Of a stretch of DNA of 36,656 nucleotides, positions 9,356 to 29,242 are shown in pieces. A program made the position numbers and the translations under genes. Positions within the stretch are counted from its first letter, which is position 1; every line of letters begins with the position of its first letter. The stretch covers positions 1 through 36,656 of the forward strand of contig VGYY01000006.1 of NCBI GenBank assembly GCA_016872815.1, read 5' to 3'. The notes beneath the pieces are model-generated. The model ran no database searches, was not told the origin of the DNA, and was given only the letters and a program-made list of their open reading frames with translations. The DNA is from Planctomycetota bacterium (GTDB lineage: Bacteria > Planctomycetota > B15-G4 > SIAN01).

Positions 9356-9633
9356 GACGATGCTCCAGGCCGGCACTGGCTCGCCGGCGCATCGGCCTTT
9401 TCGGCAGCGCGACCGCGCGCGTTGACGACCCGCTGCGCACTGCGGAAGGGGTTGCCGTTCTGCCGCGCGAGCGGGCGGTCGCGGCACGCGCCCGGGCCGG
9501 GCGGCGATGCGACGACGCCGTGCTCCGACCTTCCTGCTAGCGAACCGGATGCCGTCGCGCCGCGGCCGGCACCGCCCGGCGGCGGAAGACTCCGCCCCTA
9601 AGATCATCGGCCCTTCGGCGGCGGAGCGACACG

Positions 9634-10821: not shown

Positions 10822-11932
10822 GTTCCCGGTCGCGGTCGAGCCAGCGCCAGTCGATGCTGCCCGGCGTGGCGAGGTCGCGGCGCAGGTCGTCCAGCAACCG
10901 GCGGAAGAAGACCAGGTTGTGCTCGGTGGCGAGGATCGGGCCGAGCATCTCGTCGGCCTGGAAGAGGTGGCGCAGGTAGGCGCGCGTGTAGCGGGTGCAG
11001 GCGAGGCAGGGGCAGTCGGCCTCGATCGGCGCGTCCGCGTCGGCGTGCACGGCGTTGCGGATCCTGACCGTGCCGGCGCGCGAGAAGAGGAAGCCGTTGC
11101 GGGCGTTGCGGGTGGGCAGCACGCAGTCGAACAGGTCGATGCCGGCCCGCACCGCCGCGACCACCTCGCGCGGGCTGCCGACGCCCATGAGGTAGCGCGG
11201 CGTCGCCTCGGGCAGCAGCGGCGCGAAGCGGGTCACCTCGTCGCGGATGGTCGCCGCGTCCTCGCCGACGGCGATGCCGCCGAGCGCGAAACCGTCGAAC
11301 GGCAGCGTTCCGAGCTCGCGCGCCATTGCCGTCCGCAGCTCGAGCTCCTTGCCGCCCTGCACGATGGCGAAGCAGGCGCGCGCGTCGCCGAGACGCCGAT
11401 GCTCGGTGAGCGAGCGGCGCGCCCAGGCGAGGCTGCGGTCGCAGGCGCGGGCGATCGCGTCGCGCGGCGCGTCGGCCGGCGGGCATTCGTCGAGCACCAT
11501 CGCGATGTCGGAATCGAGCGCGTGCTGCACCTGCATCGCGCGCTCGGGAGTCAGGCGCAGTTCGCGCCCGTCGAGATGGCTCCGGAAGGTGACGCCGCCG
11601 TCGTCGAGCTGGCGGCGCTGCGCCAGCGAGAAGACCTGGAAGCCGCCGCTGTCGGTGAGCAGGATCCCGTCGTAGTCCATGAAACGGTGGAGCCCGCCGT
11701 GCGCCGCCACCGTCGCCTCGCCCGGCCGCAGCGCAAGGTGGTAGGTGTTGGCCAGCAGCGCATGGAAGCCGAGCTCGCGGATGCGGCCGCCGGCGATGCC
11801 CTTGAGCGTGCCCTGCGTCGCGACTGGCATGAAGGCCGGCGTCGGCGTGGTGCGACCGCGCACGGTCAGGGTGCCGAGCCGCGCCGCACCGGAGCGGGCG
11901 GTGATGGCGAAGCGGACGCGCGCGGCGCTCAC
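10790..11932 (-). CDS. tgt: tRNA-guanine(34) transglycosylase
   Basis: RTTPTPAFMPVATQGTLKG, LLANTYHLALRPGE, LLTDSGGFQVFSL, GVGSPREVVAAV, Zn site CPCLACTRYTRAYLRHLFQADEMLGPILATEHN; GTG start overlaps the upstream stop (GTGA). Confidence 0.95.
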   Translation of the reverse strand: MSAARVRFAITARSGAARLGTLTVRGRTTPTPAFMPVATQGTLKGIAGGRIRELGFHALLANTYHLALRPGEATVAAHGGLHRFMDYDGILLTDSGGFQVFSLAQRRQLDDGGVTFRSHLDGRELRLTPERAMQVQHALDSDIAMVLDECPPADAPRDAIARACDRSLAWARRSLTEHRRLGDARACFAIVQGGKELELRTAMARELGTLPFDGFALGGIAVGEDAATIRDEVTRFAPLLPEATPRYLMGVGSPREVVAAVRAGIDLFDCVLPTRNARNGFLFSRAGTVRIRNAVHADADAPIEADCPCLACTRYTRAYLRHLFQADEMLGPILATEHNLVFFRRLLDDLRRDLATPGSIDWRWLDRDRELSDPAAPVAE

Positions 11933-13179
11933 CAGCGCTTCACCAGCTGCGCGCCGCGGTAGTAGTGACCGATGATCTCGCGCCAGCCGCGCCCGGCCTT
12001 GGCCTGGCCCGCCGCGCCGTACTGGCAGAGGCCCACGCCGTGGCCGAAGCCGGCGCCGTCGATGCGGACGCCGCCGCGCGTCACCTCGAGCTGACGCGCC
12101 CACGGGCTCGGCAACTGCTCCTCCTTGCCGGCGCCGTCGTTCCAGGCGCGGCGGAAATCGAGTCCCTGGAACGTCCGGTTCTCGCCGCTGCCGCGCACCG
12201 TGAAGCGGATCGCGTGGCCGAACTTGTCGCGCTCCACGTCGATGGCCGCGACTTCCTTCACGCCGAGGCGGCGGGCGAGTTCGCCGGCCGCGAGCGTGCG
12301 CGTCCAGCGGTACTTGGGCGATTCGCGGCAGAAGTCGCAGGCGACACCGGCCAGCCCGGCCTTCGGCGTTTGCGTGAACACCAGCGGCGCGTCGACGGTG
12401 GCGCCACCGCAGGTGCTCATGAAATAGGAGCAGAGCGGCTCGCCGCCGACTTCGAGGACGAGGCCGCGCGACGCGGCGACCAGCGCGCGCGCCCGTTCCT
12501 GCAGGCGGGTGGTGCCGCCGTAGACTTGGTCGGCGTCGGTGGCGCGCAGCAGCTTCTCGCCGTGTTCGAGGCGGTAGCGCGCGTAGGTGCGCGCCGCGAC
12601 CGCCTGCGCCCGCAGCGCCTCGTCCGGGAAGTTCGCCGGCATCTCGGAGAAGAGCACGCCGGCGAGGTACTCCTCGACGTCGACGACGTTGACCACTTCG
12701 AGGCGGCCGCGAGCGTCGCGGCGGACGCGCAGATCGCCGGCATAGGTGCGCCCCTTGTAGGCGAGCTCGACGTCGTCCTCCGGCGCGAGCAGCACCGTCT
12801 CGGCCGTCAACGGCACTCCGTTCAGATCGAGGCCGCGGTCGCGCGCGCGCAGCCGGCCGCTCTTCAGGCGGGCACCGTCGGCGAGCGTGCCGCCTCTCGC
12901 GTCGAGGACGCGGTAGGGGCCGGGCAACGCGACTTCGACGCTGCTCAGATCGCGGTCGAGCAGCACCTCGACGTCGGGCGCCGCACTGCGCCGGGGCCCG
13001 GCGCAGCGCACCGCCGTCAGGGCGGCGGCGGCGGCGAGGACGGCGAGCGCGGCGCCGCGGCGCGGCTCGCCGGCGCCACGGACGAGCCGGCGAGCAGTGC
13101 CGACGAGTCGGTCGAGTCCCGCCCGGACCAGCGGCAGGACGCCACGACGGACGCGAGCGCGCACGCGATCAACCGCCAC
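11929..13179 (-). CDS. SpoIID/LytB domain protein (peptidoglycan lytic transglycosylase-like)
   Basis: VVDVEEYLAGVLFSEMPANFPDEALRAQAVAARTYARYRL and GFGHGVGLCQYGAAGQAKAGRGWREIIGHYYRGAQL. Confidence 0.9.
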   Translation of the reverse strand: MAVDRVRARVRRGVLPLVRAGLDRLVGTARRLVRGAGEPRRGAALAVLAAAAALTAVRCAGPRRSAAPDVEVLLDRDLSSVEVALPGPYRVLDARGGTLADGARLKSGRLRARDRGLDLNGVPLTAETVLLAPEDDVELAYKGRTYAGDLRVRRDARGRLEVVNVVDVEEYLAGVLFSEMPANFPDEALRAQAVAARTYARYRLEHGEKLLRATDADQVYGGTTRLQERARALVAASRGLVLEVGGEPLCSYFMSTCGGATVDAPLVFTQTPKAGLAGVACDFCRESPKYRWTRTLAAGELARRLGVKEVAAIDVERDKFGHAIRFTVRGSGENRTFQGLDFRRAWNDGAGKEEQLPSPWARQLEVTRGGVRIDGAGFGHGVGLCQYGAAGQAKAGRGWREIIGHYYRGAQLVKRW

Positions 13180-14185
13180 CGACTTCCTCCTCGGCGACGC
13201 CGTGAGCGACGCACCACTCGCGGCCGCGGACGGTGAGTTCGCGGCCGCGCGCTGTCTTGCGGATCAGTTCGAGGCGCAGCAGGTGCGGCTCGTAGACCTC
13301 CTCGATGGTCTCCTCGGCCTCGCCGATGCCGGCACCGATGGTCTTCAACCCGAGGACGCTCGGCGAGGCGCGTTGCAGCAGGCCGAGGATCCGCCGATCG
13401 GTCGCCTCGAGGCCGAGTTCGTCGATGCCGAGCCGGTGCAGTCCTTCGTGCGCGATCGCGGAATCGATCGCCGCGGCGCCGCGCACCTGGGCGAGGTCGC
13501 GCAGCCGACGCAGGAGCCGGTTGGCGATCCGCGGCGTGCCGCGCGCGCGCGTCGACAACTGCTCGGCGGCGCCATCGGCAAGGTCGCAGCCGAGGATGCG
13601 GGCGGTCCGCCGCACGATGCGGATGAGGTCGGCCGGCGGATAGGGGTCGAGTTTCTCGTGGATGCCGAACCGGCCGCGGAAGGCGGCGGTGAGCTTGCCC
13701 TCGCGGGTGGTGGCGCCGACCAGCGTGAACGGCTGCAGCGGCAGGCGGACGGTGCGCGCAGCCAGCCCCTGCTCGACCGGAACGTCGACGACGAAGTCCT
13801 CCATCGCGCCGTAGAGGTACTCCTCGACCGCGATCGGCAGGCGGTGCACCTCGTCGATGAAGAGCAGGTCGCCGCGTTCGAGCCCGGTGAGCAGCCCAGC
13901 GAGGTCGGCCGGTCGCGCCAAGGCCGGACCGGAGGTGACGTGGAGGCGCGCCCGGCACTCGCGCGCCAGTAGCGTGCAAAGAGTGGTCTTGCCGAGGCCC
14001 GGAAGCCCCGACAGCAGGACGTGATCGAGCGGTTCTTCACGCATCCGCGCGGCCTGCACCGCGATGCGCAGATTCTCGACGACCCGCTCCTGACCGACGA
14101 ATTCGTCGAGGCTGCGCGGGCGAAGTTCCTGCTCGTCGTTGTCGTCGTCGGCCCGATTGAGCTGGGCGAACGTGCTCGCGACCAT
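13169..14185 (-). CDS. ruvB: Holliday junction branch migration DNA helicase RuvB
   Basis: LRPRSLDEFVGQERVVENLRIAVQAARMREEPLDHVLLSGLPGLGKTTL, DLLFIDEVHRLPIAVEEYLYGAMEDF, LVGATTREGKLTAAFRGRFGI. Confidence 0.95.
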   Translation of the reverse strand: MVASTFAQLNRADDDNDEQELRPRSLDEFVGQERVVENLRIAVQAARMREEPLDHVLLSGLPGLGKTTLCTLLARECRARLHVTSGPALARPADLAGLLTGLERGDLLFIDEVHRLPIAVEEYLYGAMEDFVVDVPVEQGLAARTVRLPLQPFTLVGATTREGKLTAAFRGRFGIHEKLDPYPPADLIRIVRRTARILGCDLADGAAEQLSTRARGTPRIANRLLRRLRDLAQVRGAAAIDSAIAHEGLHRLGIDELGLEATDRRILGLLQRASPSVLGLKTIGAGIGEAEETIEEVYEPHLLRLELIRKTARGRELTVRGREWCVAHGVAEEEVGGG

Positions 14186-14472
14186 TGCGCTCCCCGCCAC
14201 TTCGGCTCGCTCGCGACGCTCCTTCCCCGGGGAGCGGCCGGCTCGATCCGGCGTGAAAGCGAACTGCGCTCGGCAGCATAGGCGGCCCTGGGGCCCCCGC
14301 AAGGAACGCGCGCGCCCGCGGCGGCGCGGACCGCCCGGTGCGGAACCGCTCAGGAATCGCGGCGCCAAGGGGCCGGTGACGCTGCCGCTCGGCAGTGCTA
14401 CGCAGTGGCACGCGAGGTGTACGGCCGTGGGCAGGCGCGGCCCCTGCCCGGGGGAGCGCGACCAGCTCGGCT

Positions 14473-14524: not shown

Positions 14525-17500
14525 ATGACCGCACCCCGCGACAGAGCCCCGAGGAGATCCATGACCATGCGAGCCAGCGCCTCCCGCTCCCTCCTGCGGA
14601 TTGCGATGACCGCGACGCTCCCGGCGGCGCTGGCGCTGCTCGCGGCGGGCTGCGGTGGCGGTGGTGGTGGTGGGAAGCCGAGCAGCTCGGGCGAACCGCT
14701 GCTCGCGCTGCATGGCCCGACCGGCCGCCTGTCGCGACTGATCGCCGAGTCGAACGCCGACCGCGGCGGCACGCCGCTGCCGACCCTGCCGCCGGCGGTC
14801 ACCGTCACCAACCACTGGTTCCGGATCGAGTTTCCGCTCAACGTCAGCCGCCAGCACATCCTCGAGGACAGCTTCCTCACCGCACCGTTCTCCTACCTCA
14901 ACGGCACGATCACCGTCAGCGACCTCTTTGGCGCGCACCTGCCCGGCCTGGCGATGGTGAACGGTGTCGATGCCAAGGGCGTCGACCACTCAAACCACCC
15001 CGATTTCCCGCATGACCTCGTCGACGGGGTCGATCGCAACCTGGGGAAGAACGTCTTCCTCTACGTCGCCGACATCGACCGCAACCTGGCGACCTACGCG
15101 ACGTTCGGCTTCAACTTCGATCCGTTCAGCAACGCCAGCTCGGAGATCACGACCGTCACCGCGCACGAGAACGGCGTGCTCGACGCCGTGCGGATCACCG
15201 TCGCCGAGATCGGCGGGGTGAACTACAACGGCGTCTTCAGCATCTCGATCGGCGCCGGCGTCGACGCGCGGCGCCCGTCGGTCGTGCGGGTCGCGGCCGA
15301 GGAGCCGAGCCCGCTCGATCCGACCAACAAGGACAGCGCCGACGTCGACACGAGCTTCGTGGTCGAGTTCTCCGAACCGGTGGTGCCGGTCAGCGTCGGG
15401 CAGTCGCCGAAGTTCAACGCGGTGGCGTTCATCGGCAACATGCCGCGCACGCCGCGCTTCGCCAGCGGCGTCGACCTCGCCGGCAACCCGATTACGGTGC
15501 CGACCTTCCCGTACCCGAACTGCGCGCTCACGGCGACGGTCAATGCCGCGGTCGGGACGCTCTTCATCCCCTTCGACTGCCAGCCGGTCAGCGAGAACAA
15601 CCTCGCGACCTATCGGCTGCGGCCGCTGATCAGCCTGCCGCCGGACACGCCGTTCGACGTCGTCGTCCGCTCCCTGACCGGCAACACCAATGCTCTGAAC
15701 TTCGAGGCCGACTCGATCATCGACCTGTCCGGCAACTTCTACGACGGGCAGGACGCCGATCTCGACGGCAACCCCGATCAGATCGACTTCTCGAAGCGCT
15801 TCACCACCGGCCCCGGCCCCGGCCTGGTCAACATCCCGGTGTCGCCGGAAGTCCTCTACTGGCTGCCGGCGGGCACGGACGGGATCGGCGCGCTCGACCT
15901 GAACGGCAAGGGGATGTCCACCAACACGCCGGGCGCGAATGCCGAGCGGCGTGACAGCGCGATGCTCGTCACGAAGGTCTGGATCGACGTCAATACCAAC
16001 TGCGAGCTCAATCCCGGCGGGCTCAACCTCGCCAACGGCATCGGCCTGTGGGGCCAGCCGGGCAACGATCCGACGCCGACCGATCCCTGCACGACGCTGC
16101 CGATGATCGAGTACGGCCACAACAAGTTCCTCTTCCCGGTGGGACTCGGCAGCTATGGCTACGGGCCGGTCATCAACCAGACGCGCTCCGGAGCCGACCG
16201 CACCTGGAACGCCAACCTCGATCCGGGCAACCCGGGGACGCCCATGCCGGGCGTCAACGAGGGGTCGAGCGGGTTCGAGACGCTCTGCCGCGACAGCAAC
16301 GGCGACGTCATCCTGACCGGGCGCGAGTTCGGCTCGGTCGGATTGGTCGAGGACCTGATCGTCGGCGAATTCCTCGACCTGGTCTACTACGACCAGCAGT
16401 CGACGCGCGCCGCCAACAACTTGCACGTCAGCATCTGGAACACGGCACCGATCCACGGGCTCACCGGGCGCGGCAACACCATCGCCGATCCGCCGACGCC
16501 GAATCCGCCGCCGCTGCGCTACTGGCTCGGCATGCCGGAGGTGGCCACCGTCGCCGACGTCATCAATCCGGAGAACCCGCCGCTCTTGATCGAGGGGCAG
16601 GAGGTCTTCAGCTTCGCCCGCTTCAACGGCATCTTCGCGCCGGCGCAGCAGTTGAACGGCTGGAACTACCTCCAGCCGAACACCCTGCGACCCGACAACG
16701 CCGATGTCACCGTGTTCCCGCACATCGGGACCGGCCCGGGCGAGCAGTCGAGCTCGATCGCCGTCAGCTATTCGTCGCGGCAGCAGATCGGCAACTTCCT
16801 CTACGCGACGGATGCCAGCAACAACGTCATCCACGCGATCAACAGCAACACGATGCGGGTGATCGCCAGCATCCCGACGCCGGATCCGACCGGACTGGCG
16901 ATCGCCCCCGACATGTCGCGCCTCTACGTGACCAACTTCGGCTACGATTCGGTCTCGATCGTCGGCGCGAATCCGTATGCGGCCGACTTCCACCAGGAGA
17001 TCGCCCGGGTCAGCGTCGGCATTGGTCCGCGCGCCATCTGCGTGCAGCCGGAGCACGAGGAGATCCTGGTCTGCAATTACCTTGGCAACACGGTCTCGCT
17101 CATCAGCGAGGTCGACCTCTCGGTCCGCAAGACGATCGACGCGTTGATCAGCGGCCCGTACGACATCGAGGCGGCGCCGCGGCAGATCCAGCCGTTCTCG
17201 CCGTCGCCGCAGGCGCCGACCGCCATCGGCTGGGCCTGCGGGGTCTACTTCGCCTACATCTCGAACTTCACCGGCAACTCCGTCGTCGTCTTCGAATCGG
17301 GGCCGGACGGTCCGCAGGGGATCGGCATCGACAACGTGCGCGGTTCGCTGCCGACCGACGACGACACGACGAACGAGATCTTCGAGCCGCGCGGCCTCTG
17401 CTATGACCCGTTCGCCAATCCGGCCGGGCTCTTCGCCGGCGGCTGCTTCGTCGCCCATCGCGACTCGAGCGGCGCTGGCCGGGTGACCCAGATCCAGTTC

Positions 17501-17965
17501 ACGCAGCAGGCGTCGTTCGGCGCGCTGCCGATCAACGCGCCGCCGGGCCTGCAGACGCCGCCGGGCTTCCTCGATCGCGTGTTCGAGATCGTCCGCACCT
17601 ACGGCGGCGGCACCAACGACCGGTTCATCGGCGAGGTGCCGTCGGACGTCTCCCTGTGCGATCTCAACGTGGGTGGCTGGCGGACTGACGCGTCGCTCGG
17701 TCAGGCTTCGGCCGCGCCGAACTCCGGCTGGCTCGGGCCGGCCCCGGAACCGGCGAAGACCGGCGCCAGCAACTCGAAGCATCCCCTCCGGCTCAACGTC
17801 CCGTCCTGCTTCCCCTGCGTCACGCCGGACCGGCTCTACGTCGCGTTCGAGGATGTCGGCGCGATCCAGGTGCTCGATCCGGCGCAACCGGGGACCATCC
17901 TGAACACGATCATCGACCCGTCGGTGGACGGCATGCGGCGGATCACCGGGTACTGGCGTCAGTGA
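14525..17965 (+). CDS. Giant lipoprotein, paralogue 1 (SbsA Ig-like region plus YVTN-type beta-propeller)
   Basis: ATG at 14525 (GGAGG upstream) or 14561 (GAGGAG upstream); signal peptide ending LLAAGC followed by seven Gly; FVVEFSEPVVPVSVG Ig-like; YVTNFGYDSVSIVG, LVCNYLGNTVSLI propeller repeats. Confidence 0.88.
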   Translation: MTAPRDRAPRRSMTMRASASRSLLRIAMTATLPAALALLAAGCGGGGGGGKPSSSGEPLLALHGPTGRLSRLIAESNADRGGTPLPTLPPAVTVTNHWFRIEFPLNVSRQHILEDSFLTAPFSYLNGTITVSDLFGAHLPGLAMVNGVDAKGVDHSNHPDFPHDLVDGVDRNLGKNVFLYVADIDRNLATYATFGFNFDPFSNASSEITTVTAHENGVLDAVRITVAEIGGVNYNGVFSISIGAGVDARRPSVVRVAAEEPSPLDPTNKDSADVDTSFVVEFSEPVVPVSVGQSPKFNAVAFIGNMPRTPRFASGVDLAGNPITVPTFPYPNCALTATVNAAVGTLFIPFDCQPVSENNLATYRLRPLISLPPDTPFDVVVRSLTGNTNALNFEADSIIDLSGNFYDGQDADLDGNPDQIDFSKRFTTGPGPGLVNIPVSPEVLYWLPAGTDGIGALDLNGKGMSTNTPGANAERRDSAMLVTKVWIDVNTNCELNPGGLNLANGIGLWGQPGNDPTPTDPCTTLPMIEYGHNKFLFPVGLGSYGYGPVINQTRSGADRTWNANLDPGNPGTPMPGVNEGSSGFETLCRDSNGDVILTGREFGSVGLVEDLIVGEFLDLVYYDQQSTRAANNLHVSIWNTAPIHGLTGRGNTIADPPTPNPPPLRYWLGMPEVATVADVINPENPPLLIEGQEVFSFARFNGIFAPAQQLNGWNYLQPNTLRPDNADVTVFPHIGTGPGEQSSSIAVSYSSRQQIGNFLYATDASNNVIHAINSNTMRVIASIPTPDPTGLAIAPDMSRLYVTNFGYDSVSIVGANPYAADFHQEIARVSVGIGPRAICVQPEHEEILVCNYLGNTVSLISEVDLSVRKTIDALISGPYDIEAAPRQIQPFSPSPQAPTAIGWACGVYFAYISNFTGNSVVVFESGPDGPQGIGIDNVRGSLPTDDDTTNEIFEPRGLCYDPFANPAGLFAGGCFVAHRDSSGAGRVTQIQFTQQASFGALPINAPPGLQTPPGFLDRVFEIVRTYGGGTNDRFIGEVPSDVSLCDLNVGGWRTDASLGQASAAPNSGWLGPAPEPAKTGASNSKHPLRLNVPSCFPCVTPDRLYVAFEDVGAIQVLDPAQPGTILNTIIDPSVDGMRRITGYWRQ

Positions 17966-18023
17966 TCGGGGTCCGCACGGAGCCGCGGACGCAACCGCTC
18001 GCAGCAGCAATCGTCTGAGAACA

Positions 18024-18043
18024 CCGCCCGTCGCGACGGGCGG
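18024..18043 (+). terminator. Hairpin downstream of giant lipoprotein 1, candidate terminator
   Basis: Perfect 20-nt palindrome CCGCCCGTCGCGACGGGCGG about 60 nt after the stop. Confidence 0.5.
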
Positions 18044-18288
18044 CTTCGCTGCGTGGCCGGGCGTCACCGCGCCTCGAACCCGGATCTATGGCACTGCCCA
18101 ACGGTCGATCCGCCACGGGTGTGCCGAGGCCGTCTGCGCCGAACGGGGGCCGCCGCGCGATTCCGCTCGAACGGTCGTCGCCGCCGGCGGTTCCCGGAGG
18201 AATCAGTCATCGGATCGTGCGTGGCACGGGGGATGCTGATGGACCTGCGGAATGGGCCGTTTCCCGGGGCGCCCCCGGGGAGAGAACT

Positions 18289-18317
18289 TTGACCGGTTCT
18301 CTCCGGCGACCTATAAC
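18289..18317 (+). promoter_or_regulatory. Candidate sigma70-type promoter of giant lipoprotein 2
   Basis: TTGACC - 17 nt - TATAAC, 80 nt before the CDS start. Confidence 0.65.
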
Positions 18318-18396
18318 CCCGCCCTTTCCGCCGCGACATCGTTGGCGAAAGTGCGGCGGTGATGTGCCGCCGGATCGCATCAGGAGAGCGAGCGCA

Positions 18397-21300
18397 ATGC
18401 GAGCCATGCCACTCGGTCCGACCAAGGCTGTGCTCGGGGTGTCCTCGACCGCGCTGCTCGCCACCTTCTTCCTCCCGGGGTGCGGCGGAGGCGGGGGCGG
18501 CGGCACCTCCAACGGCGATCTCGCGGAGGTCCCGATCTCGGTGGTCGGAACGCCCGGGACGCTGGCGATGACGCCGGTCGAGGCGAACAACGCGAACGGA
18601 ACCGCTCCGCTGCCCACGTTCACACCGACCGTGACGACCGACAACCATTGGTTTCGGCTCGAGTTCCCGTTCGATCTCCAGCCGACCTCGCTGCTCAGCG
18701 CCGACGGCCTGTTCGAGCCGTTCTCGCAGTTGAACGGCAATCTCACGATCGTCGACGAGGCCGGCGCGCATGTCCCCGGCCTTGCCCTGATCAACGGCAT
18801 CGATGCGTTCGGCGTCGACCACTCGGCCGACATCGGGTTCCCGCACGACCTCGCACCGACCGGCAACGACCGCAATCTCGGCAAGGCGGTCTTCCTGTTC
18901 ATCGCCGATGTCGACGGCGACCTGTCGACGCCCGCACCGTTCGGCGGTTACGCCCCCGATCCGGGCAACGCCAACGAGACGATCGAGACCACGACGTCGG
19001 TGATCACGAAGATCCGCGTCAACCTCGACGCGGTGAACGGTGGCAGCACGAACGCGGCGTGGGCGTTCACGGTCGGGGCGGCCGATGCGCAAGCGCCGTT
19101 CGTGACGTCGATCGGCGCCGAGACGCGGAATCCGGTGGATCCGCTCAATCCGGCGTCCACGGCGGCCTCGGGGTCGTTCATCGTGACGTTCTCGGAGCCG
19201 GTCGTGCCGCGTTCGGTCGGCCGCTCGTCGACGCTCGACGGTGCGCCCTTCACCGGCAACCTGCCGAATCGATTCACCGGCCTGAACGCGCCGACCACGG
19301 TCGTGCGCGCGACCGTTCCGCTGGCGAACGGCACGCTGCAGGTGCCGTTCGACTGCAATCCGGTCAACATCAACAACCTGCTGTCCTACCGGCTGTCTCC
19401 GCTGATCGGGATGCCGTCGGATTCGTCGGTCGACGTCGTCCTGCTCACGCTGACCACCAACAATGGCCTGTCGGCGATCGATTTGGCCGGCAACGGCTAC
19501 GACGGACAGGACACCGATGGCGATGACGTCGGCGAGGGCGCCGATCACGCCGTCACCTTCACGGTCGGGCCCGGCCAGCCGGTGGTGAACATCCCGGTCT
19601 CGCCGGAAGTCGTCTACTTCCTCCCGTCCGGGGTTCCCGGTATCGGCGCGATCGACCTCAACGGCGAAGGTTTCGGCACCAACACTCCGGGTGTCAACAA
19701 CACCTTCGACCGCGCGTCGCTGGTGACGCGGAACTGGCTGGATGTGCTCGGTTGCGAGGCGAACCCGGGCGGCTTCAATCCTTTCAATGGCATCGGCCTC
19801 CTGACCTATCCGGCGAAGCTGCCGACGAACACCGATCCGTGCACGGGGCAGCCGATGGTCGAGTTCGCCTGCAACGCCTACTACTTCCCGATCGGCCTCG
19901 GCGGGTTCGCCTACGGTCCGACGATCAACGCCGAGCGGCGCATCAACGGCGATTTCCCGGATGCATGGAACTCGGCGATCTCGCTCGGCAACACCGGGAC
20001 CACGCTGCCCGGCGTGAACGAGGGGTCGGCCGGTTTCGAGACGCTCTGCCGCAACAGCGAAGGCGACGCGATCCTGACCGGCCGCACCTTCGGCGACATC
20101 GGCACCGCCACCGAGCTGATGGTCGGCGACTTCCTCGATCGGGTCTACTTCGACAAGTACAACACCCACGCGCAGACCGGCCTGCACGTCGCCTTCTTCG
20201 CCGGCGGCGCGGGTACGACGCGCAACCTGATCTCCGAGCCGCCGGTGCCCAATCCGCCGCCGACGCGCTATTGGGCCGGTTTGCCGCAGACGGATGTCTC
20301 GTTCGACGTCAACGCGCCGGGCACGCCGGGCGTGCTGATCGAAGGTGACGAGGTCTGGACCGGACATCGTCCGGCGGCGGTCTTCGGTTTCATCGCCGCG
20401 GGCCAGGCCGCGCCCTATTCGGCCGGCTACGTCCACCTGAAGAGCAACCCGCTCAATCCGGCGCTGCTGCCGGACTTGACCGTCACTCCGCACTCGATCG
20501 GCCCGAATGGAGCGGCGCTCGGCGGCAACGGCCCCGGCCATCAGTCGGCCACCGGGAACTACACGTACGCCTCGCGCATGCAGGTCGGCAACTTCCTGTA
20601 CGTGACCGATGCGTCGTCGCGATTGCTGCACGCGGTCAACTCGAACACCATGCGGGTGATCTCGAGCATCTCGCTGCCCGACCCGACCGGGATCGGCATG
20701 GCGCCGGACCTCTCGTACGCGTACGTCACCAACTTCTCGAACGACTCGCTCTCGATCGTCGGCATCGATCCGGGGTCGACTGACTTCCACCGCGAGGTGG
20801 CCCGCGTCCCGGTCGGCATCGGCCCGCGTGCGGTCGCCGTGCAACCGGAGCACGAGGACGTCATCGTCTGCAACTACCTCGGCAACACCGTCACCATCCT
20901 CGACCCGAAGCGGCTCACCATCCGCAAGACGCTTGATGCGTTGATCAGCGGGCCGTGGGACGTCGAGGCGACGCCGCGGCAGGAGCAGCCGACGGCGCCG
21001 CATCCGTCCGGTTGGCAGTGCGGCATCTACTTCGCTTACGTGTCGAACCTGACCGGCAACAGCGTCATCGTCTACGAATCGGGACCGGACGGTCCGCGCG
21101 GAATCGGCATTGACAACATCCGTGGGTCGCTCCCGACGGACGATTCGCCCGAGGAACTCATCGCTCCGCGCGGCCTCTGCTTCTCGCCCTTCGCCAATCC
21201 GGCCGGCCTGTTCGCCGGTGGCGTGTTCGTGGCGCACCAGGACGAAGGCGGCAATGGCCGGGTGTCGCACATCCAGTTCACGCAGCAGGCGCTGTTCGGG

Positions 21301-21729
21301 CCGCTGGTGATCCAGGTGCCGCCGGGCTTCTTCATCCCGCCGGGCTTCACCGACCGCGTCTTCGAGATCGTCGGAACGTGGGGCAACACCGACACCTCGC
21401 GGCTCGCGGGCTATCTCGTCGCCGATGTGACGCTGGCCGACATGAACACGGCCAGCTACCGCGGCAACCCCGCCGGCGCGCCGAACTTCGGCGGGCTCGG
21501 TGACGCGCCGCAATGGCAAGTCGCGGGCAGCGTGAACTCGAAGAACCCGTTGCGCATCACGTCGGGAGGCACGGCGATCGCGGTCGTGCCGGATCGGCTG
21601 TACATCGCGTACGAGGACTCGGATCAGATCCAGGTGGTCTCGCCGACGCAGCCCGGGCTGATCCTGAACACGATCGAGGGCCACGGTGGGCTGGGCACGA
21701 AGAAGCTCGGTTCGTACTGGCGGCAGTGA
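18397..21729 (+). CDS. Giant lipoprotein, paralogue 2 (SbsA Ig-like region plus YVTN-type beta-propeller)
   Basis: ATG preceded by AGGAG; lipobox FFLPGC then seven Gly; co-linear similarity with paralogues 1 and 3 along its whole length; YVTNFSNDSLSIVG, IVCNYLGNTVTIL. Confidence 0.88.
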   Translation: MRAMPLGPTKAVLGVSSTALLATFFLPGCGGGGGGGTSNGDLAEVPISVVGTPGTLAMTPVEANNANGTAPLPTFTPTVTTDNHWFRLEFPFDLQPTSLLSADGLFEPFSQLNGNLTIVDEAGAHVPGLALINGIDAFGVDHSADIGFPHDLAPTGNDRNLGKAVFLFIADVDGDLSTPAPFGGYAPDPGNANETIETTTSVITKIRVNLDAVNGGSTNAAWAFTVGAADAQAPFVTSIGAETRNPVDPLNPASTAASGSFIVTFSEPVVPRSVGRSSTLDGAPFTGNLPNRFTGLNAPTTVVRATVPLANGTLQVPFDCNPVNINNLLSYRLSPLIGMPSDSSVDVVLLTLTTNNGLSAIDLAGNGYDGQDTDGDDVGEGADHAVTFTVGPGQPVVNIPVSPEVVYFLPSGVPGIGAIDLNGEGFGTNTPGVNNTFDRASLVTRNWLDVLGCEANPGGFNPFNGIGLLTYPAKLPTNTDPCTGQPMVEFACNAYYFPIGLGGFAYGPTINAERRINGDFPDAWNSAISLGNTGTTLPGVNEGSAGFETLCRNSEGDAILTGRTFGDIGTATELMVGDFLDRVYFDKYNTHAQTGLHVAFFAGGAGTTRNLISEPPVPNPPPTRYWAGLPQTDVSFDVNAPGTPGVLIEGDEVWTGHRPAAVFGFIAAGQAAPYSAGYVHLKSNPLNPALLPDLTVTPHSIGPNGAALGGNGPGHQSATGNYTYASRMQVGNFLYVTDASSRLLHAVNSNTMRVISSISLPDPTGIGMAPDLSYAYVTNFSNDSLSIVGIDPGSTDFHREVARVPVGIGPRAVAVQPEHEDVIVCNYLGNTVTILDPKRLTIRKTLDALISGPWDVEATPRQEQPTAPHPSGWQCGIYFAYVSNLTGNSVIVYESGPDGPRGIGIDNIRGSLPTDDSPEELIAPRGLCFSPFANPAGLFAGGVFVAHQDEGGNGRVSHIQFTQQALFGPLVIQVPPGFFIPPGFTDRVFEIVGTWGNTDTSRLAGYLVADVTLADMNTASYRGNPAGAPNFGGLGDAPQWQVAGSVNSKNPLRITSGGTAIAVVPDRLYIAYEDSDQIQVVSPTQPGLILNTIEGHGGLGTKKLGSYWRQ

Positions 21730-21780
21730 CGGGTCGACGACGCAGGTCGATCCAGCACAAGGCGGACGGGACTCGAACGA

Positions 21781-22569
21781 ATGGAACGGCTCGATCCAGG
21801 ACAGAAGTCGGGTGCGGAGGTGCGGCGGATGTTCGACGCCGTGGCGCCGCGCTACGACCTCCTGAACCGGCTGTTGTCGGCGGGCAGCGATGTCCGCTGG
21901 CGGCGGCGAGCGGTTGCGGTCGCCCTCGCGGGTCGCGCGGGCGCGCGGGTCGCGGACATCTGCTGCGGCACCGGCGATCTCGCCCTGGAACTGGCCCGCG
22001 ATCCGCGCGTGGCGGCAGTGGCCGGCTTCGACTTCTCGGCGCCGATGGTGGTGCGGGCATGCCGGAAGGCGGCGGCCGCGCCGGCGCGCGGCGGGCCGCC
22101 CGGAACGGTCCGTTTCGCGGTCGGAGATGCGCAGAGGCTCCCGGTCGGAGCGGGCCAGTTCGACGTCGTCACCATCGCTTTCGGGTTGCGGAATCTGGTC
22201 GATCCGGCGGCAGCGATCGCGGAGTTCGCGCGGTTGCTGCAGCCTGGCGGACGGTTGGTGGTGCTCGAGTTCTTCCGGCCGGAAGGTGGGGGGGCGGCGG
22301 CGTTGTTCCGCGGCTACTTCCGCCACGTGCTGCCGCGGATCGGTCGCTGGCTGGCCGGCCGCGCGAGCGTCGACGCCTACCGCTATCTGCCGGATTCGGT
22401 GGAGGCATTCGCACCGCCGGAGCAGGTCGAAGGCTGGTTCCGTTCGGCCGGGTTCGAGTCGGTGGCGATCGAGCGGATGCTGTTCGGCGCGGTCGGCCTG
22501 GTGACGGGAACGAAGGTCGTCCCGGTTCCGGCACCGGCGGCGTCGACACGCGAATTGTGTCCGGTGTGA
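21781..22569 (+). CDS. ubiE: Demethylmenaquinone/ubiquinone C-methyltransferase UbiE/MenG
   Basis: VRRMFDAVAPRYDLLNRLLSAGSDVRWRRRAV, VADICCGTGDLALELA, VGDAQRLPVGAGQFDVVTIAFGLRNLVDP, YRYLPDSVEAF. Confidence 0.92.
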   Translation: MERLDPGQKSGAEVRRMFDAVAPRYDLLNRLLSAGSDVRWRRRAVAVALAGRAGARVADICCGTGDLALELARDPRVAAVAGFDFSAPMVVRACRKAAAAPARGGPPGTVRFAVGDAQRLPVGAGQFDVVTIAFGLRNLVDPAAAIAEFARLLQPGGRLVVLEFFRPEGGGAAALFRGYFRHVLPRIGRWLAGRASVDAYRYLPDSVEAFAPPEQVEGWFRSAGFESVAIERMLFGAVGLVTGTKVVPVPAPAASTRELCPV

Positions 22570-22706
22570 AGCGCGGGGTGTGAAGCACGCGGTCAGGCCG
22601 AGGCGGCGACGCCGCGGCCGCCGCTGAGGTGATAGTTCGGAAGATGATCGGGTCGGCCGCGAGGCTGGTCCGCCGAACCTTGGAGAACGATGTGTTCGGA
22701 GATCCC

Positions 22707-25700
22707 ATGAGTCGCGGTCGCGCGCGCAAGGGGTGGGGTGCTGCTGCCACCGTTGCGTCTCTGCTCGGGGCTTCGGCTTGCGGCGGGGGCGGCGGGGGCA
22801 ACGGTGCCGGCAACGGCAGCGATCTCGCCGACCCGGTGATCGCCTTGCTCGGCACCACCGGCAAGTACTCGCAGACGCCGGAGGAAGCGAACGCCTCGCG
22901 CGGTCAGCTGAAGCCGCCGGTCATGCCGAAGTCGGCCGGAGCGGCCAACCAGTTCTTGCGACTCGAGGTGCCGTTCGACGTGCGCCGGCAGGACGTCGCG
23001 TCCCCGGATCCGATCTTCGGCGCCTTCTCCCAGCTCATCGGCAACCTGATCGTCGTCGACGAGCAGGGCGCGCACGTCCCGGGCATCGTCCTGGTCAACG
23101 GCGTCGACGCCTTCGGGCGCAAGCGGATGGACGACCCCGGGTTCCCGCAGGATCTCGACGGCGCCGGCAAGAACCGCAACGTGGGCAAGGGCGTGATCCT
23201 CTACGTCGCCGATGACGGCGACGGCGATCTCTCGACCCTTGCCGCATTCGGCGGGCGCTCCAACGACAGCGACTCGAGCGTGCTGACCACCGACATCGCC
23301 CAGTTGCGCATCTCGCTTGGATCGCTCTGGGGGCGTTCGATCGATGCCTTCTACACCATCACCGTCGCCAACTCGGTGGCGGACGACGCGACCGGGCCGC
23401 GCGTCCTGTCGGTGGTCGCCGAGACGCCCGACGCCGAGGATCCGCTGGACGCCGGTCGGTGCGCCAGCACGACGCGGTTCATCGTCCGCTTCTCGGAGCC
23501 GTGCGTGCCGACGACCGTCGGCCAGTCCGCGGAGCTCGACGGCACGCCGTACCTTGGCAACATGCCGCTGCTCCCCCTGCCGGGATCGCCGCCGTCCAAG
23601 CCGCTGCCCCACACGCACATCACGGCGACGCTCAACTCCAATACGGCCCAGCTGTTCCTGCCGTGCGATGTGCGTCCGGTCAACTCGAACAACCTGGCCG
23701 CCTACTTCATCACGCCCCTGATCGACCTGCCGTCGCAGCGGGAAATCACGCTGGTGATCGTCGACGCCAACGCGAACAGGGACTCGTCGCAGACCCCGTT
23801 CGGCCCGATCGACCTCGTCGGCAACCTGCACACGCCGGGTGCCGATTCGCGCACCAACTTCACCGCCGGCCGCGGCCGCGTGCCGTGCAACGCCCCGGTC
23901 TCGCCGGAGGTGATGTACTGGCTGCCGATCTCCGCCAACGGCATCGGTGCGATCGACCTGAACGGCAACGGGTTCAACACCAACACGCCCGGCCGGTTCT
24001 CGAATGCCGATCCGGCGAACTACGTGCATGCAGCGCTCATCACGCGCTTCCCGGATACGGTGGGCGGCATCGGCATCCTCGGGGTCAGCAATCGCTACTC
24101 CTGGCCGGTCGGCACCGGCAGCTTCGTCTACGGGCCGGGCTTCTCGATCAATGGCCAGGCCTGGGTGGGCAACTCGGCGAACGACACCGGCAATTCCGGT
24201 ACGCCGATCCCCGGCGTCAACGAGATGTCGGCCGGCTTCGAGACGCTGGTGCGCAACGCCGAGGGCGACGTGCTGCTCAGCGGCACGACCGGCGGCACGC
24301 TCGGCATCGTCAATGACATGGTCGTCGGCGACTTCCTCGATGCCGGGATCTACGACACCCAGAACATCTGGGCGCAAGCGTCCTTCCGCGGTTCGTCGCG
24401 CAACCTCATCGCGCTGCCGGTGGTGCCGAACCCGCCGCCGCTGCGTTACTGGGTCGGCCTCAACCCGATCGACATCCTGATCGATCAGAACAATCCGCTG
24501 GCGAAGGCGCGCCTGATCGAGGGGGAAGAGGTCTGGAACGGTCTCTACAACTTCGTCGTCCCCGACAAGGTCACCGCTCTCGAGATCGACGATCCGCCGA
24601 TCGGCGGCGGCGTGAACGGGCCGGCGCCGCAGACCTCCACGTTGCCGTCCGCATTCGTCGCTCGCCAGCAGATCGGCAACTACCTCTACGTGGCGGACGC
24701 GACCGCCGGCCTGCTGCAGGTGGTCAACTCGAACACCTTCCAGGTGATCACGTCGCTCGACCTGCCCGAACCGGCCGGCGTCGCCGTCCGCTCGGACAGC
24801 CGATACGTGTTCACCGCCAACGCCGGCGACGACACCGTGTCGATGATCGGTTCCGATCCGACGCAGGTCGACTTCCACCAGGAACTCGCCCGGATCCCGG
24901 TCGGCCGCGGGCCGAAGGCGATCTCCTGCCAGGGCAACGGCGAGGACGTGCTGGTCGTCAACTCGCTCGACAACACCATCAGCATCGTCGAACTCGGCAC
25001 GCTGACCGTCCGCAAGACCCTCGATGCGCTGATCGACGGGCCGCGCGAGATGGTCGTGACAGCGCGGCAGAACGGCTACGGCTGGAACTGCGGCATCTAC
25101 TTCGCCTACATCGCCAATTTCACGGGCAACAACGTCGTCGTCTACGAGTCGGGGCCGGGCGGGCCGCTCGGCATCGGCTGCGACAACGTGCTCGGATCGC
25201 TGCCGACCGTCGACACCGACTACGAGATGTTCGAGCCGCGCGGGCTGTGCTACTCGCCGTTCATGAACGAACAGGGCCTGTTCGCCGGTGGCGTGTTCGT
25301 CGCGCACCGCGACAACGCCGGCCGCGGGCTGCTGAGCCACATCCAGTTCACCCACCAGGCGTTCTCGGGGCCGCTGCCCTGCGTGCTGCCGCCGGGCCAG
25401 TTCTTCATCCCGCCAGGCTTCAACGTCCGCGAGTTCGCCATCACCGGGCAGTGGGGCTCCAACTCCGACAGCGAGCTCCTCGGAAGCCAGCCGAGCTCGG
25501 TCTCCCTGATCGACTTCCGCCACGAGCACTACTCGACCAATCCGCCGGGCACCGCCAACCAGGACTTGCGCGGGACCCCGGGCTTCGGCGGCATCAACTC
25601 GCGCCACCCGATCCGCTTCATGCCCCCACCCGATCCGCGCGCCCCGCATACCGCCGCGGTCGAGCCCGACCGCATGTACGTCGCGTTCGAGGACACCGAC

Positions 25701-25808
25701 CGCATCCAGGTCCTCGATCCGGCGCGCGTGGGCATCTCGCTCGGCGAGCTCAAGGAAGGGACCGGCTTCGGCGTGCGTCGCCTGATCAGCTACTTCGAGA
25801 GCCAGTGA
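22707..25808 (+). CDS. Giant lipoprotein, paralogue 3 (SbsA Ig-like region plus YVTN-type beta-propeller)
   Basis: ATG preceded by GGAG; lipobox-like LLGASAC then six Gly; FIVRFSEPCVPTTVG, MYWLPISANGIGAIDLNGNGFNTNTPG and propeller segments align with paralogues 1 and 2. Confidence 0.87.
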   Translation: MSRGRARKGWGAAATVASLLGASACGGGGGGNGAGNGSDLADPVIALLGTTGKYSQTPEEANASRGQLKPPVMPKSAGAANQFLRLEVPFDVRRQDVASPDPIFGAFSQLIGNLIVVDEQGAHVPGIVLVNGVDAFGRKRMDDPGFPQDLDGAGKNRNVGKGVILYVADDGDGDLSTLAAFGGRSNDSDSSVLTTDIAQLRISLGSLWGRSIDAFYTITVANSVADDATGPRVLSVVAETPDAEDPLDAGRCASTTRFIVRFSEPCVPTTVGQSAELDGTPYLGNMPLLPLPGSPPSKPLPHTHITATLNSNTAQLFLPCDVRPVNSNNLAAYFITPLIDLPSQREITLVIVDANANRDSSQTPFGPIDLVGNLHTPGADSRTNFTAGRGRVPCNAPVSPEVMYWLPISANGIGAIDLNGNGFNTNTPGRFSNADPANYVHAALITRFPDTVGGIGILGVSNRYSWPVGTGSFVYGPGFSINGQAWVGNSANDTGNSGTPIPGVNEMSAGFETLVRNAEGDVLLSGTTGGTLGIVNDMVVGDFLDAGIYDTQNIWAQASFRGSSRNLIALPVVPNPPPLRYWVGLNPIDILIDQNNPLAKARLIEGEEVWNGLYNFVVPDKVTALEIDDPPIGGGVNGPAPQTSTLPSAFVARQQIGNYLYVADATAGLLQVVNSNTFQVITSLDLPEPAGVAVRSDSRYVFTANAGDDTVSMIGSDPTQVDFHQELARIPVGRGPKAISCQGNGEDVLVVNSLDNTISIVELGTLTVRKTLDALIDGPREMVVTARQNGYGWNCGIYFAYIANFTGNNVVVYESGPGGPLGIGCDNVLGSLPTVDTDYEMFEPRGLCYSPFMNEQGLFAGGVFVAHRDNAGRGLLSHIQFTHQAFSGPLPCVLPPGQFFIPPGFNVREFAITGQWGSNSDSELLGSQPSSVSLIDFRHEHYSTNPPGTANQDLRGTPGFGGINSRHPIRFMPPPDPRAPHTAAVEPDRMYVAFEDTDRIQVLDPARVGISLGELKEGTGFGVRRLISYFESQ

Positions 25809-25952: not shown

Positions 25953-26711
25953 ATGCGGGCGATGGCGGTGCGACGGCGCGCGGGCGCGCTGGATCTCGGG
26001 ACCTACCTGCGGCTGACCCGCGGGGTGACCGTCTCGATCGCCTACCTGTTGCCGCTGCTGGCCGCTTACGAGGTCGGCGTGCAGTGGAGCGGCAGCGATC
26101 TGCGCAACTCCGCCGAACTGTCGCTGAAGACGGCCGCCGGCATCTCGGGAACTCTGGGACCGTGGATCCAGCGCGCCGTGCTGCTCGGCGTGCTGGTGGT
26201 GGCGATCCGGCTGGCGCGGCGCAACGTACCGGCGCTGCGGCTCTATCCGGTGTTCCTGCTCGAGGCGGTGCTGTTCGCGCTGCTGCTCGGGCCGGCGGCG
26301 GCGGCGTTGGTCGACAGCGTCGGCCTCTCGGCGCCGGCGCCGACCGCCGCCGCGTCGGTTCCGTCGACGACGCAACGCCTCCTGCTGTCGATCGGCGCCG
26401 GCGTCTATGAGGAACTGGTGTTCCGCTTCCTGCTGCTCGCGGGGGGCTTCACGCTGCTCCACCGCGTGCTGGGTTTCCGGCGCGGGCCGTCCCTCGGCTG
26501 CGCCGTCGCCGTCTCCGCGCTGCTCTTCAGCGGCTACCACCACCTCGGTCCCGGCGCCGAGCCGTTCACCGCTCCGGTCTTCGCGTTCCGCGCCGCCGCC
26601 GGCCTTGCGCTCGGCATTCTGTTCACCTGGCGCGGCCTCGCGCTGTGCGCCTACCTGCACGCCTTCTACGACATGCTCTGCGACCTCACCCACTCCGGAG
26701 CGGCGCCATGA
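25953..26711 (+). CDS. CPBP family intramembrane glutamic protease (CAAX protease/bacteriocin-processing type)
   Basis: Multi-TM; motifs GVYEELVFRFLLL, FSGYHHLG, AYLHAFYDMLCD. Confidence 0.88.
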   Translation: MRAMAVRRRAGALDLGTYLRLTRGVTVSIAYLLPLLAAYEVGVQWSGSDLRNSAELSLKTAAGISGTLGPWIQRAVLLGVLVVAIRLARRNVPALRLYPVFLLEAVLFALLLGPAAAALVDSVGLSAPAPTAAASVPSTTQRLLLSIGAGVYEELVFRFLLLAGGFTLLHRVLGFRRGPSLGCAVAVSALLFSGYHHLGPGAEPFTAPVFAFRAAAGLALGILFTWRGLALCAYLHAFYDMLCDLTHSGAAP

Positions 26712-27307
26712 GCCGACTGATCGTCGCCATCACCGGCGCCTCGGGTGCCCCCTACGCCGTCGCGACCCTGGCGCGCCTGCTCGCGGCCGGCAGCGCGGTC
26801 GATCTGGTCGTCAGCGCCGCGGCCGAACGCGTCGCGCGCGACGAACTCGGCGACGACTGGTCGCCCGCCGCGCTGGAGCGTCGCTTCGGTGCAGGCGCGT
26901 CCGCGATCCGCCGCCACGAGCCGGGCGACATCGGGGCGACCATCGCCTCGGGCAGCGCGCCGGTCGACGGGATGATCGTGGTGCCGTGCTCGATGGGCAG
27001 CGCCGGACGGATCGCCGCCGGCCTCTCCGAATCGCTGATCGAGCGCGCCGCCGACGTGCAGCTCAAGGAGCGCCGGCCGCTGGTGCTCGTGGTGCGCGAG
27101 ACCCCGCTGTCGGTGATCCACCTCGAGAACCTGCTGCGCCTCGCCCACGCGGGCGCCACCGTGCTGCCGGCGGCGCCGGGGTTCTACGCGCGGCCGCGGG
27201 AGATCGCCGACCTGCTCGGGTTCGTCGCCGAGCGGGCGATCGCCGCCGCCGGGATCGCGCTGAAGCGGGAGGTCGAGTGGCGCGGCGACGGCGAGGGCGG
27301 GCGATGA
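26708..27307 (+). CDS. ubiX: UbiX family flavin prenyltransferase
   Basis: MSRLIVAITGASGAPYAVATLARLL, MIVVPCSMGSAGRIAAGLSESLIERAADVQLKERRPLVLVVRETPLSVIHLENLLRLAHAGATVLPAAPGFYARP. Confidence 0.93.
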   Translation: MSRLIVAITGASGAPYAVATLARLLAAGSAVDLVVSAAAERVARDELGDDWSPAALERRFGAGASAIRRHEPGDIGATIASGSAPVDGMIVVPCSMGSAGRIAAGLSESLIERAADVQLKERRPLVLVVRETPLSVIHLENLLRLAHAGATVLPAAPGFYARPREIADLLGFVAERAIAAAGIALKREVEWRGDGEGGR

Positions 27308-28197
27308 GCCGCGAGGCTCCCGCCGCCGCGCGGAATCTGCTCGCGCGCACCGCCATCACGCTCGAGATGGTCAAGGTGTCGCACACGATCTTCGCGCTGC
27401 CGTTCGCCCTGACGGCGCTGTTCCTCGCCGCCGACGGCTGGCCCGGTCTGCGCCGGTTCGGCCTCGTCGTCGGGGCGTTGCTGTGCGCGCGGGCCGGGGC
27501 GATGGCGTTCAATCGGCTGGTCGACGCCGATTTCGACGCGCGCAATCCACGGACGGCGGGGCGAGCGCTGCCGGCCGGCCTGCTGAGCCGGCGCTTCGCC
27601 GGCGGCTTCGTCGTCGTCTGCGCCCTGTCGTTCGTCGCCTGTTCCTATGCGCTGAACCGTCTCTGCCTCTGGCTGTCGCCGGTCGCGCTCGCGGTGACGC
27701 TCGGCTACTCCTACGCCAAGCGCTTCACGGCCCTCTGCCACCTCTGGCTCGGCGTCGCGCTCGGGATCTCGCCGCTGGCGGCGTGGTGCGCCGTCCGCGG
27801 GACGGTCGATGCGACCACGTGGATCCCCGGCGCGCTGGCGATCGCGGTCCTGTTCTGGGTGGCCGGATTCGACGTGATCTACGCCTGCCAGGACGCCGAG
27901 GTCGATCGGCGGCTCGGGCTCTTCAGCCTGCCGTCGCGCCTCGGGCCCGCGCGCGCGCTGCGCGTGGCCCGCGGGTTCCATGCGGTCACCGTGATCGCGC
28001 TGCTCGCCGCCGGCTGGCTGGCCGGGCTCGGGATCGCGTGGCACGTGGCCGTGGCGCTCGTCGCGGTGGCGCTGGTCGCGCAGCATCGCGTCGCCGATCC
28101 GGCCGACCCGCGCCGCCTGGAGCGCGCCTTCTTCCGGCTGAACGCCGGCGTCGGTCCGGCGCTCTTCGTCGCCGTGCTGGTCGAGCGCTGCACATGA
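27304..28197 (+). CDS. UbiA family polyprenyltransferase (MqnP-like)
   Basis: VKVSHTIFALPFALTALFL, AMAFNRLVDADFDARNPRTAGRALPAG, GFDVIYACQDAEVDRRLGLFSLPSRLG. Confidence 0.92.
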   Translation: MSREAPAAARNLLARTAITLEMVKVSHTIFALPFALTALFLAADGWPGLRRFGLVVGALLCARAGAMAFNRLVDADFDARNPRTAGRALPAGLLSRRFAGGFVVVCALSFVACSYALNRLCLWLSPVALAVTLGYSYAKRFTALCHLWLGVALGISPLAAWCAVRGTVDATTWIPGALAIAVLFWVAGFDVIYACQDAEVDRRLGLFSLPSRLGPARALRVARGFHAVTVIALLAAGWLAGLGIAWHVAVALVAVALVAQHRVADPADPRRLERAFFRLNAGVGPALFVAVLVERCT

Positions 28198-29219
28198 GCG
28201 GCGGCATCCAGTTCACGCCGGGCTCGCCGCTGCCGCCGGCGCTGCTGGTCGGCGGATCGGCGCGCTGCCTGCAGGAGGAGCTGCTGGCGAAGTGCCTGGC
28301 TCCGCTCGGCAAGGACGCCGAGGTCGAGCGCCTGCCGGCCGCCGCGCTGCAGAAGGAGAAGGACGAGGGCGGGCTCGCGCCGATCGTGCTGCGACGCCTG
28401 GCGAGCGTGTCGCTGTTCGGCGCGCGGCGCGTCGTGGTCGTGATCGGCGGGCAGGAGCTGCTGCGCGACAAGCAGTCGAAGGCGTGGATCGAGCGGCCGA
28501 CGCCGCGCGCGCACCTCATCATCGCGGCGACCCGGCCGGCGAAGGACGGGCCGTACGCCGTGCCCGCCGGCCTGCCGGTGGCGGTCTGCTGGGAGACCGG
28601 GCCGCAGTCCCCGGGCGAGGTCGAGCGCTTCCTCGAACGCCGCCTTGCGCTCCGCGGCGCCAAGGCGAGCCGCGCCGCGATCGCGGCGCTGGTCGAGCAG
28701 GCGGGAGGTTCGCTCGACGTGCTGGACGGCGAGATCGAGAAGCTGTCGCTCTACCGGCTCGGCGAGACGATCGAGGTCGCCGACGTCGAGGCGCTGTGCG
28801 GTCACACCGCCGGTCGCGACTTCGATCGGCTCTGGCAGGCGTTGCTGGCGGGTCGCGCCGGCGAGGCGCTCGCTGTGGTGCAGGCGATGGCGGTCGAGGG
28901 GCTGCTCCTGTTCGGCGGCGGCCGCGTGTTCGGGGCGGCGGCGGTGGCGAACGCGCTGCTGCCGATGCTGCTGGCCCGGGTCCGGCGCGTCGCGGCGGTC
29001 GCCTCGCCGAACGAGAAGCTGGTCGCGGCGGCAGCCGCCGCCTTCGGGATGAAGCCGGGCTACGTCCACTTCCTGCAGCGGGATGCGCGGGCGCTCGGCC
29101 CGCGGCTGCTGCGCTGGCAGGCGGCCGCGATCGGCGCGGAGGTGCAGCAGAAGCGCGGCGGGGCGCGCGAGGACGACGAACTGCTCGAGCACCTGCTGCT
29201 CGAGCTGGCGGCGCGCTGA
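28194..29219 (+). CDS. holA: DNA polymerase III subunit delta
   Basis: Overall HolA-like layout; LASVSLFGARRVVVVIG, LDGEIEKLSLYRLGETIEVADVEALCG, C-terminal helical collar region; weaker motif conservation than neighbouring calls. Confidence 0.75.
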   Translation: MSGGIQFTPGSPLPPALLVGGSARCLQEELLAKCLAPLGKDAEVERLPAAALQKEKDEGGLAPIVLRRLASVSLFGARRVVVVIGGQELLRDKQSKAWIERPTPRAHLIIAATRPAKDGPYAVPAGLPVAVCWETGPQSPGEVERFLERRLALRGAKASRAAIAALVEQAGGSLDVLDGEIEKLSLYRLGETIEVADVEALCGHTAGRDFDRLWQALLAGRAGEALAVVQAMAVEGLLLFGGGRVFGAAAVANALLPMLLARVRRVAAVASPNEKLVAAAAAAFGMKPGYVHFLQRDARALGPRLLRWQAAAIGAEVQQKRGGAREDDELLEHLLLELAAR

Positions 29220-29242
29220 CGGCGCGGTCGGGAGGGGGCGCG

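Follow-up and report, generated by a model that had tools for sequence, protein, structure and literature searches.

The archaeal surface-layer YVTN protein of known structure (PDB 1l0q) is an exported propeller joined to a beta-sandwich domain, and the leptospiral antigen Lp49 (PDB 3bws) also pairs an immunoglobulin (Ig)-like domain with a propeller. In Bacteroides, the vitamin B12-binding BtuG proteins are surface-exposed lipoproteins that pair with BtuB transporters (PMC6143338, PMC10404256). We describe here a family of large exported proteins, LIP, three members of which (LipA, LipB and LipC) are encoded in a stretch of 36,656 nucleotides from a Planctomycetota bacterium (contig VGYY01000006.1 of assembly GCA_016872815.1), called the window below. 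On balance, we think that LIP is a core, vertically inherited envelope lipoprotein that uses its propeller to bind a partner. Neither the family as a whole, nor its presence throughout a class, nor its constant chromosomal position appears to have been described. Searches of Pfam, NCBIfam and the PDB found no full-length relative, and full-length assignment with Pfam and NCBIfam gave only YVTN repeats above cutoff, which agrees with the initial annotation of this DNA, where the architecture had been called apparently undescribed. A literature search did not find Planctomycetes, YVTN and lipoprotein together; Planctomycetes and YVTN were found together only for integrin-type propellers.

PDB searches by sequence and by fold returned 1l0q first and hydrazine synthase beta next; many generic propellers came after these, BtuG and Lp49 among them. 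The sequence match to 1l0q (E=4.7e-43 with the A4 profile) is limited to the regular blades; this protein carries a PKD domain instead of the Big_5 domain of LIP, and the LIP N-domain, Ig domain and middle inserts (see below) are without counterpart in it. Lp49 matches in the propeller, but weakly (profile E=0.008 over about 50 residues), and is much smaller, lacking the N-domain and the inserts. The Big_5/SbsA-type Ig domain (PF13205), which matches the presumed stalk of LIP, makes up one part of the protein only. Generic YVTN blades bring LIP above background with the models for hydrazine synthase beta, L-NosZ and YncE (NF052340, NF052460, NF052280), yet the scores stay at or below 36 bits against cutoffs of 400-700, and LIP is not a member of these families. 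For the window copies, the NCBIfam equivalog scores are at most 35 bits for L-NosZ (cutoff 700) and at most 36 bits for hydrazine synthase beta (cutoff 560).

LIP, as a putative surface lipoprotein, resembles the surface lipoprotein BtuG, whose propeller is related by Foldseek (PMC6143338). The presence of BtuG1 and BtuG2 among the Foldseek matches brings to mind ligand capture of the same type, in which the LIP propeller would take a surface nutrient and hand it to a TonB-dependent transporter. We consider this unlikely, since the propeller matches are generic and a near-universal single locus is unlike nutrient-specific transport loci. BtuG is encoded with BtuB, whereas no BtuB was identified at the LIP locus, nor any TonB-dependent transporter among its conserved neighbours, and BtuG and LIP show no full-length sequence match.

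Three paralogues and the distribution of the family

The LIP genes of the window, and the gene that lies among them, are the following:

14525..17965, + strand: LipA, lipoprotein paralogue, 1146 aa (lipobox Cys codon at 14651; profile match E=0)
18397..21729, + strand: LipB, paralogue, about 1110 aa (longest open reading frame from 18088; likely start ATG 18397; lipobox Cys codon at 18481)
21781..22569, + strand: ubiE/COQ5-type methyltransferase between LipB and LipC (PF01209, E=5.4e-49; position matched in relatives)
22707..25808, + strand: LipC, paralogue, about 1033 aa (longest open reading frame from 22629; likely start ATG 22707; lipobox Cys codon at 22779)

In LipB and LipC, the likely start is directly followed by a signal peptide with its lipobox. 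LipA is 53% identical to LipB and 45% to LipC in an alignment that is co-linear over the full length and far above chance; in a larger alignment, LipC shows 44% identity to LipA and 47% to LipB. Open reading frames, likely starts and end-to-end alignment thus agree with the initial annotation of three co-linear, same-strand paralogues of these lengths, and the motifs that it quoted are found in the alignment. Its description of the genes as tandem holds for a duplicated same-strand array, but not strictly, as ubiE, which had been missed, separates LipB from LipC. The three further genomes from the window's family likewise have ubiE between LIP copies. In all three proteins, a hydrophobic stretch is followed by [GA]C and poly-Gly, a lipobox from which lipidation is predicted. 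The combination recurs in most relatives and is not universal: members from family f2 apparently begin with an ordinary Sec signal and have no lipobox.

Counting copies in the host and searching for the family with a hidden Markov model (HMM) had both been proposed in the initial annotation, and both were carried out. The profile finds exactly three copies in the window's own genome (4.2 Mb), which are LipA, LipB and LipC (E about 0). All sampled genomes of the window's class carry the family (14/14), as do 116/121 genomes of a second Planctomycetota class (51/52 of the high-quality ones), where the five negative genomes may reflect assembly gaps. At strict cutoffs, phylum-wide samples were positive in 51/294 and 69/392 genomes (about 17% of sampled Planctomycetota). 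Of 39 relatives, 24 gave a profile match, in some cases through generic propeller repeats only. Metagenome-assembled genomes (MAGs) are incomplete, and other phyla were covered by a motif-based scan only. All named relatives come from Planctomycetota MAGs. The term lineage-specific, applied to the system earlier, proved too narrow, the family being spread over at least 16 taxonomic families of Planctomycetota.

For deep Planctomycetota, most of them uncultured, little is understood of the core gene sets, and the phylum has an unusual envelope and cell biology. LIP is exported, occurs in about 96-100% of the genomes sampled from two classes, stays at one locus and has been duplicated repeatedly, which makes it a strong candidate for an envelope component that defines the lineage. 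The family also provides a practical marker, and a few of its residues and domains are now singled out for testing.

Some members depart from the usual size. In family f3 (loci L043-L047), the LIP open reading frames reach about 1500-2050 aa, with a long poly-Gly tether followed by a long extra N-terminal sequence. An open frame of 4848 aa in another genome (L023, G032:C167) has several YVTN-like matches and perhaps encodes a giant propeller-repeat protein. In genome G005, two contig ends (L048 on C43, L049 on C37) both fall inside nearly identical LIP genes. This suggests that assemblies are interrupted at recent tandem copies, and that MAGs therefore show fewer copies than exist.

Evolution of the LIP genes

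In a tree of the propeller, sequences are grouped by host family. Duplicates cluster within families f1, f2, f10, f27, f32, f36, f63 and f84, which means that tandem duplication took place independently about eight times; the duplication proposed for the window genes is borne out. A further genome, of family f56, carries two adjacent LIP copies. In the f1 tree, LipC (after ubiE) split first, and LipA and LipB separated later. As the gene tree follows the hosts, LIP is, to judge by its sequences, vertically inherited. Ratios of nonsynonymous to synonymous substitutions (dN/dS) of 0.07-0.29 indicate purifying selection. When paralogues are compared, most pairs show lower similarity in the N and Ig parts than in the propeller. 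A mobile origin was considered and rejected: no relative was found in viral contigs, and plasmids gave only generic propeller matches.

These data bear on the possibility that LIP is a structural component of an S-layer-like cell coat, or else an accessory adhesin varying among strains. Such a role would suit the Ig-plus-propeller layout, the repeated duplication and the fact that the closest relative in structure and sequence is an archaeal surface-layer YVTN protein. It seems to us improbable all the same. LIP usually occurs in 1-3 copies and does not form a large expanded set, a variable adhesin would hardly be near-universal and have such low dN/dS, and Pfam scans of the window copies and of 35 members revealed no SLH or other S-layer anchor. 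Even if LIP proved to be no more than an adhesin-like lipoprotein of the ordinary kind, its locus would remain a clean natural series in which to study tandem duplication at a fixed site.

Domain organization and the middle segment

The structure of LipC was modelled with AlphaFold2 (AF2) from an alignment of 77 sequences (mean predicted local distance difference test score, pLDDT, 80; predicted template modelling score 0.80). This model supersedes an earlier one of LipA, based on 21 sequences, in which mature residues 390-715 had pLDDT below 40. The following parts are distinguished in LipC (numbering of the mature protein):

22821..23378, + strand: N-terminal beta-rich domain, residues 15-200 (pLDDT mostly >90; no Pfam match of its own)
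23385..23864, + strand: SbsA/Big_5-type Ig-like domain, residues 203-362 (pLDDT mostly >90)
23865..23963, + strand: start of the propeller module, hairpin strands 378-383 and 390-393, motif NAPVSPEVMYWLP..GIGAIDLNG (pLDDT about 94 at 381-390; short homologues begin here)
23964..24203, + strand: insert 1, length-variable, low confidence (pLDDT 35-42 over most of it)
24204..24353, + strand: PGVNExSxGFETL...VxDxxVGDFLD segment with strand 511-519, the putative first strand of blade 1
24354..24674, + strand: insert 2 with a conserved PNPPP motif (P548-P553 region >90% conserved in 77 members; pLDDT 28-72)
24675..25805, + strand: main YVTN-type propeller, with a conserved C-terminal strand at its end (YVTN repeats, PDB/Foldseek matches, AF2)

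All recognisable parts, namely the anchor, the Ig-like stalk and the seven-bladed propeller head, are known folds. The SbsA-type Ig domain announced in the initial annotation is confirmed by PF13205 (Big_5), which matches 10 of the 35 family members scanned (best E=3.4e-9), while staying below detection in individual Pfam scans of LipA, LipB and LipC. The YVTN-type propeller is supported too. TIGR02276 repeats score 38.7 bits in LipA and 36.5 in LipC (cutoff 27.85), with LipB below cutoff at 16 bits, and Foldseek gives a probability of 1.00 to many propellers, 1l0q, the best match in both sequence and fold, being hit at 1.4e-16 and 2.9e-13. In Pfam and NCBIfam scans, the individual window copies show only YVTN, YncE and Lactonase propeller signals, in the C-terminal third; YNCE (PF21783) and Lactonase (PF10282) reach 15-21 bits, against gathering thresholds of 27.1 and 21.7, respectively.

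It had been proposed that an additional domain, matching nothing recognised, lies between the Ig-like and propeller regions. This is probably wrong, as both the AF2 model and the short secreted homologues indicate a single propeller module that begins inside the presumed middle domain. In the model, regular blade strands run with high confidence from residue 634, the stretches 396-474 and 586-625 are poorly ordered, and two elements, the strands 378-393 and the C-terminal strand 999-1003, stand outside the main run of blades. The middle segment is therefore likely, as modelled, to consist of the first blade strands of the propeller and two poorly ordered, variable inserts. The hairpin 378-393 and the C-terminal strand would belong to one closing blade, strand 511-519 would be the first strand of blade 1, and residues 396-475 and 526-632 would be loop inserts. 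This reading, drawn from the strand order, is supported by three observations: short Sec-secreted homologues of family f32 (L125, L126) have the hairpin motif within about 35 residues after the signal, insert lengths vary across the family (6-118 aa for insert 1, 43-178 aa for insert 2), and most members end in a conserved Y[WF]xQ. The two f32 homologues (L125:5689-7743 and L126:6261-8366) are about 650 aa long, comprise the middle-plus-propeller module only and are encoded away from the conserved cluster described below.

Residues G517, G633, P665, E722, R763 and E790 of mature LipC are invariant in the alignment. Together with the PNPPP motif, they point to strong sequence constraint on the middle-plus-propeller module. 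The CxxCH heme motif occurs in 0/77 members, which speaks against a redox enzyme.

The conserved chromosomal site

The genes that flank LIP in the window, all supported by synteny as well as by Pfam matches, are:

10790..12103, - strand: TGT, queuine tRNA-ribosyltransferase (PF01702, E=7e-129)
11929..13179, - strand: SpoIID-domain protein (PF08486)
13169..14368, - strand: RuvB, divergently transcribed (PF05496)
25953..26711, + strand: CAAX-type (Rce1-like) membrane protease (PF02517)
26407..28197, + strand: UbiA prenyltransferase open reading frame (PF01040; the domain, at aa 330-579, places the true start further inside)
28292..31075, + strand: MutL open reading frame (PF01119, PF08676; true start probably inside)

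Comparison of loci L034-L053 and L059-L078 showed the same order in nearly every locus with flanks: TGT-SpoIID-RuvB in reverse, then one to three LIP genes and UbiE-CAAX-UbiA-MutL in the forward direction. Variations are few. In f1, one LIP gene lies downstream of ubiE; in f2 (L037, L042), the SpoIID-RuvB pair and the LIP genes have changed sides; f10 and f27 gave no UbiE match, and in f10 a LIP gene may stand on either side of CAAX. A few extra LIP copies lie elsewhere (L066, L124-L126). Scanning for promoters and terminators gave no informative signal. In one genome (G026, family f16), the cluster is complete and RuvB adjoins UbiE without any LIP gene (L079, G026:C20:559000-576000). This empty site may reflect a loss or the ancestral state; a RuvB tree, in its basal branches, favours neither.

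The constant company of ubiE and ubiA could be taken to reflect quinone metabolism, LIP being then a secreted enzyme, either a lactonase or a redox- or quinone-linked propeller. The subthreshold Lactonase and YNCE matches and the invariant E722, R763 and E790 would be in line with this. We find it quite improbable, since LIP scores far under the cutoffs that NCBIfam sets for lactonases, L-NosZ and hydrazine synthase, and since UbiE is a cytoplasmic enzyme and LIP an exported protein. Moreover, RuvB, TGT, SpoIID and MutL are neighbours too. Because the flanking genes mix tRNA modification, DNA repair, recombination and quinone functions, we take the neighbourhood for a gene order that rearranges slowly, and not for a pathway.

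A possible mode of action

In the interpretation that we favour, that of a core envelope lipoprotein, the lipid anchor and Gly tether would hold LIP on a membrane, probably the outer one, and the N and Ig domains would form a stalk. The propeller would be a non-catalytic head that binds a partner, which may be an envelope polymer, a protein or a small ligand. Its start, made of the closing-blade hairpin and two loop inserts, would be what was previously called the middle domain, with the conserved C-terminal strand closing the ring in the model. Since duplicates diversify faster in their N and Ig parts than in the conserved propeller, paralogues would display much the same head on stalks that differ. 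The fixed position across classes, which the initial annotation did not mention, and the near-universality of LIP suggest such a core role rather than that of an accessory adhesin.

Several points weigh against this interpretation. Blade HMM scores on the first hairpin are not above those of shuffled or other-domain controls, and closure of the blade by the middle segment, though likely, is read from strand positions in the model. The strictly invariant charged residues E722, R763 and E790 could be catalytic or ligand-binding. As f2 members have no lipobox and the short forms look soluble and secreted, membrane anchoring would not be essential to every member. More generally, the envelope localization of LIP, the binding of a partner and the non-catalytic nature of the head are predictions. 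A bolder version, in which LIP is an essential or near-essential, class-defining envelope system that was already at the ruvB/ubiE/ubiA/mutL site in the common ancestor of several classes, whose propeller is closed by a remote N-terminal hairpin and the C-terminal strand, and whose envelope function is undescribed and specific to these bacteria, is conceivable but rather doubtful.

Other genes of the window

Further from the LIP genes, the window encodes a HEAT-repeat protein of 660 aa (7625-9607, - strand) beside a phosphoglucomutase/phosphomannomutase open reading frame (5276-7543, + strand); relatives of both are found near the LIP cluster in some other genomes. A DegT/DnrJ/EryC1-type aminotransferase (31194-33149, + strand) lies 3' of mutL.

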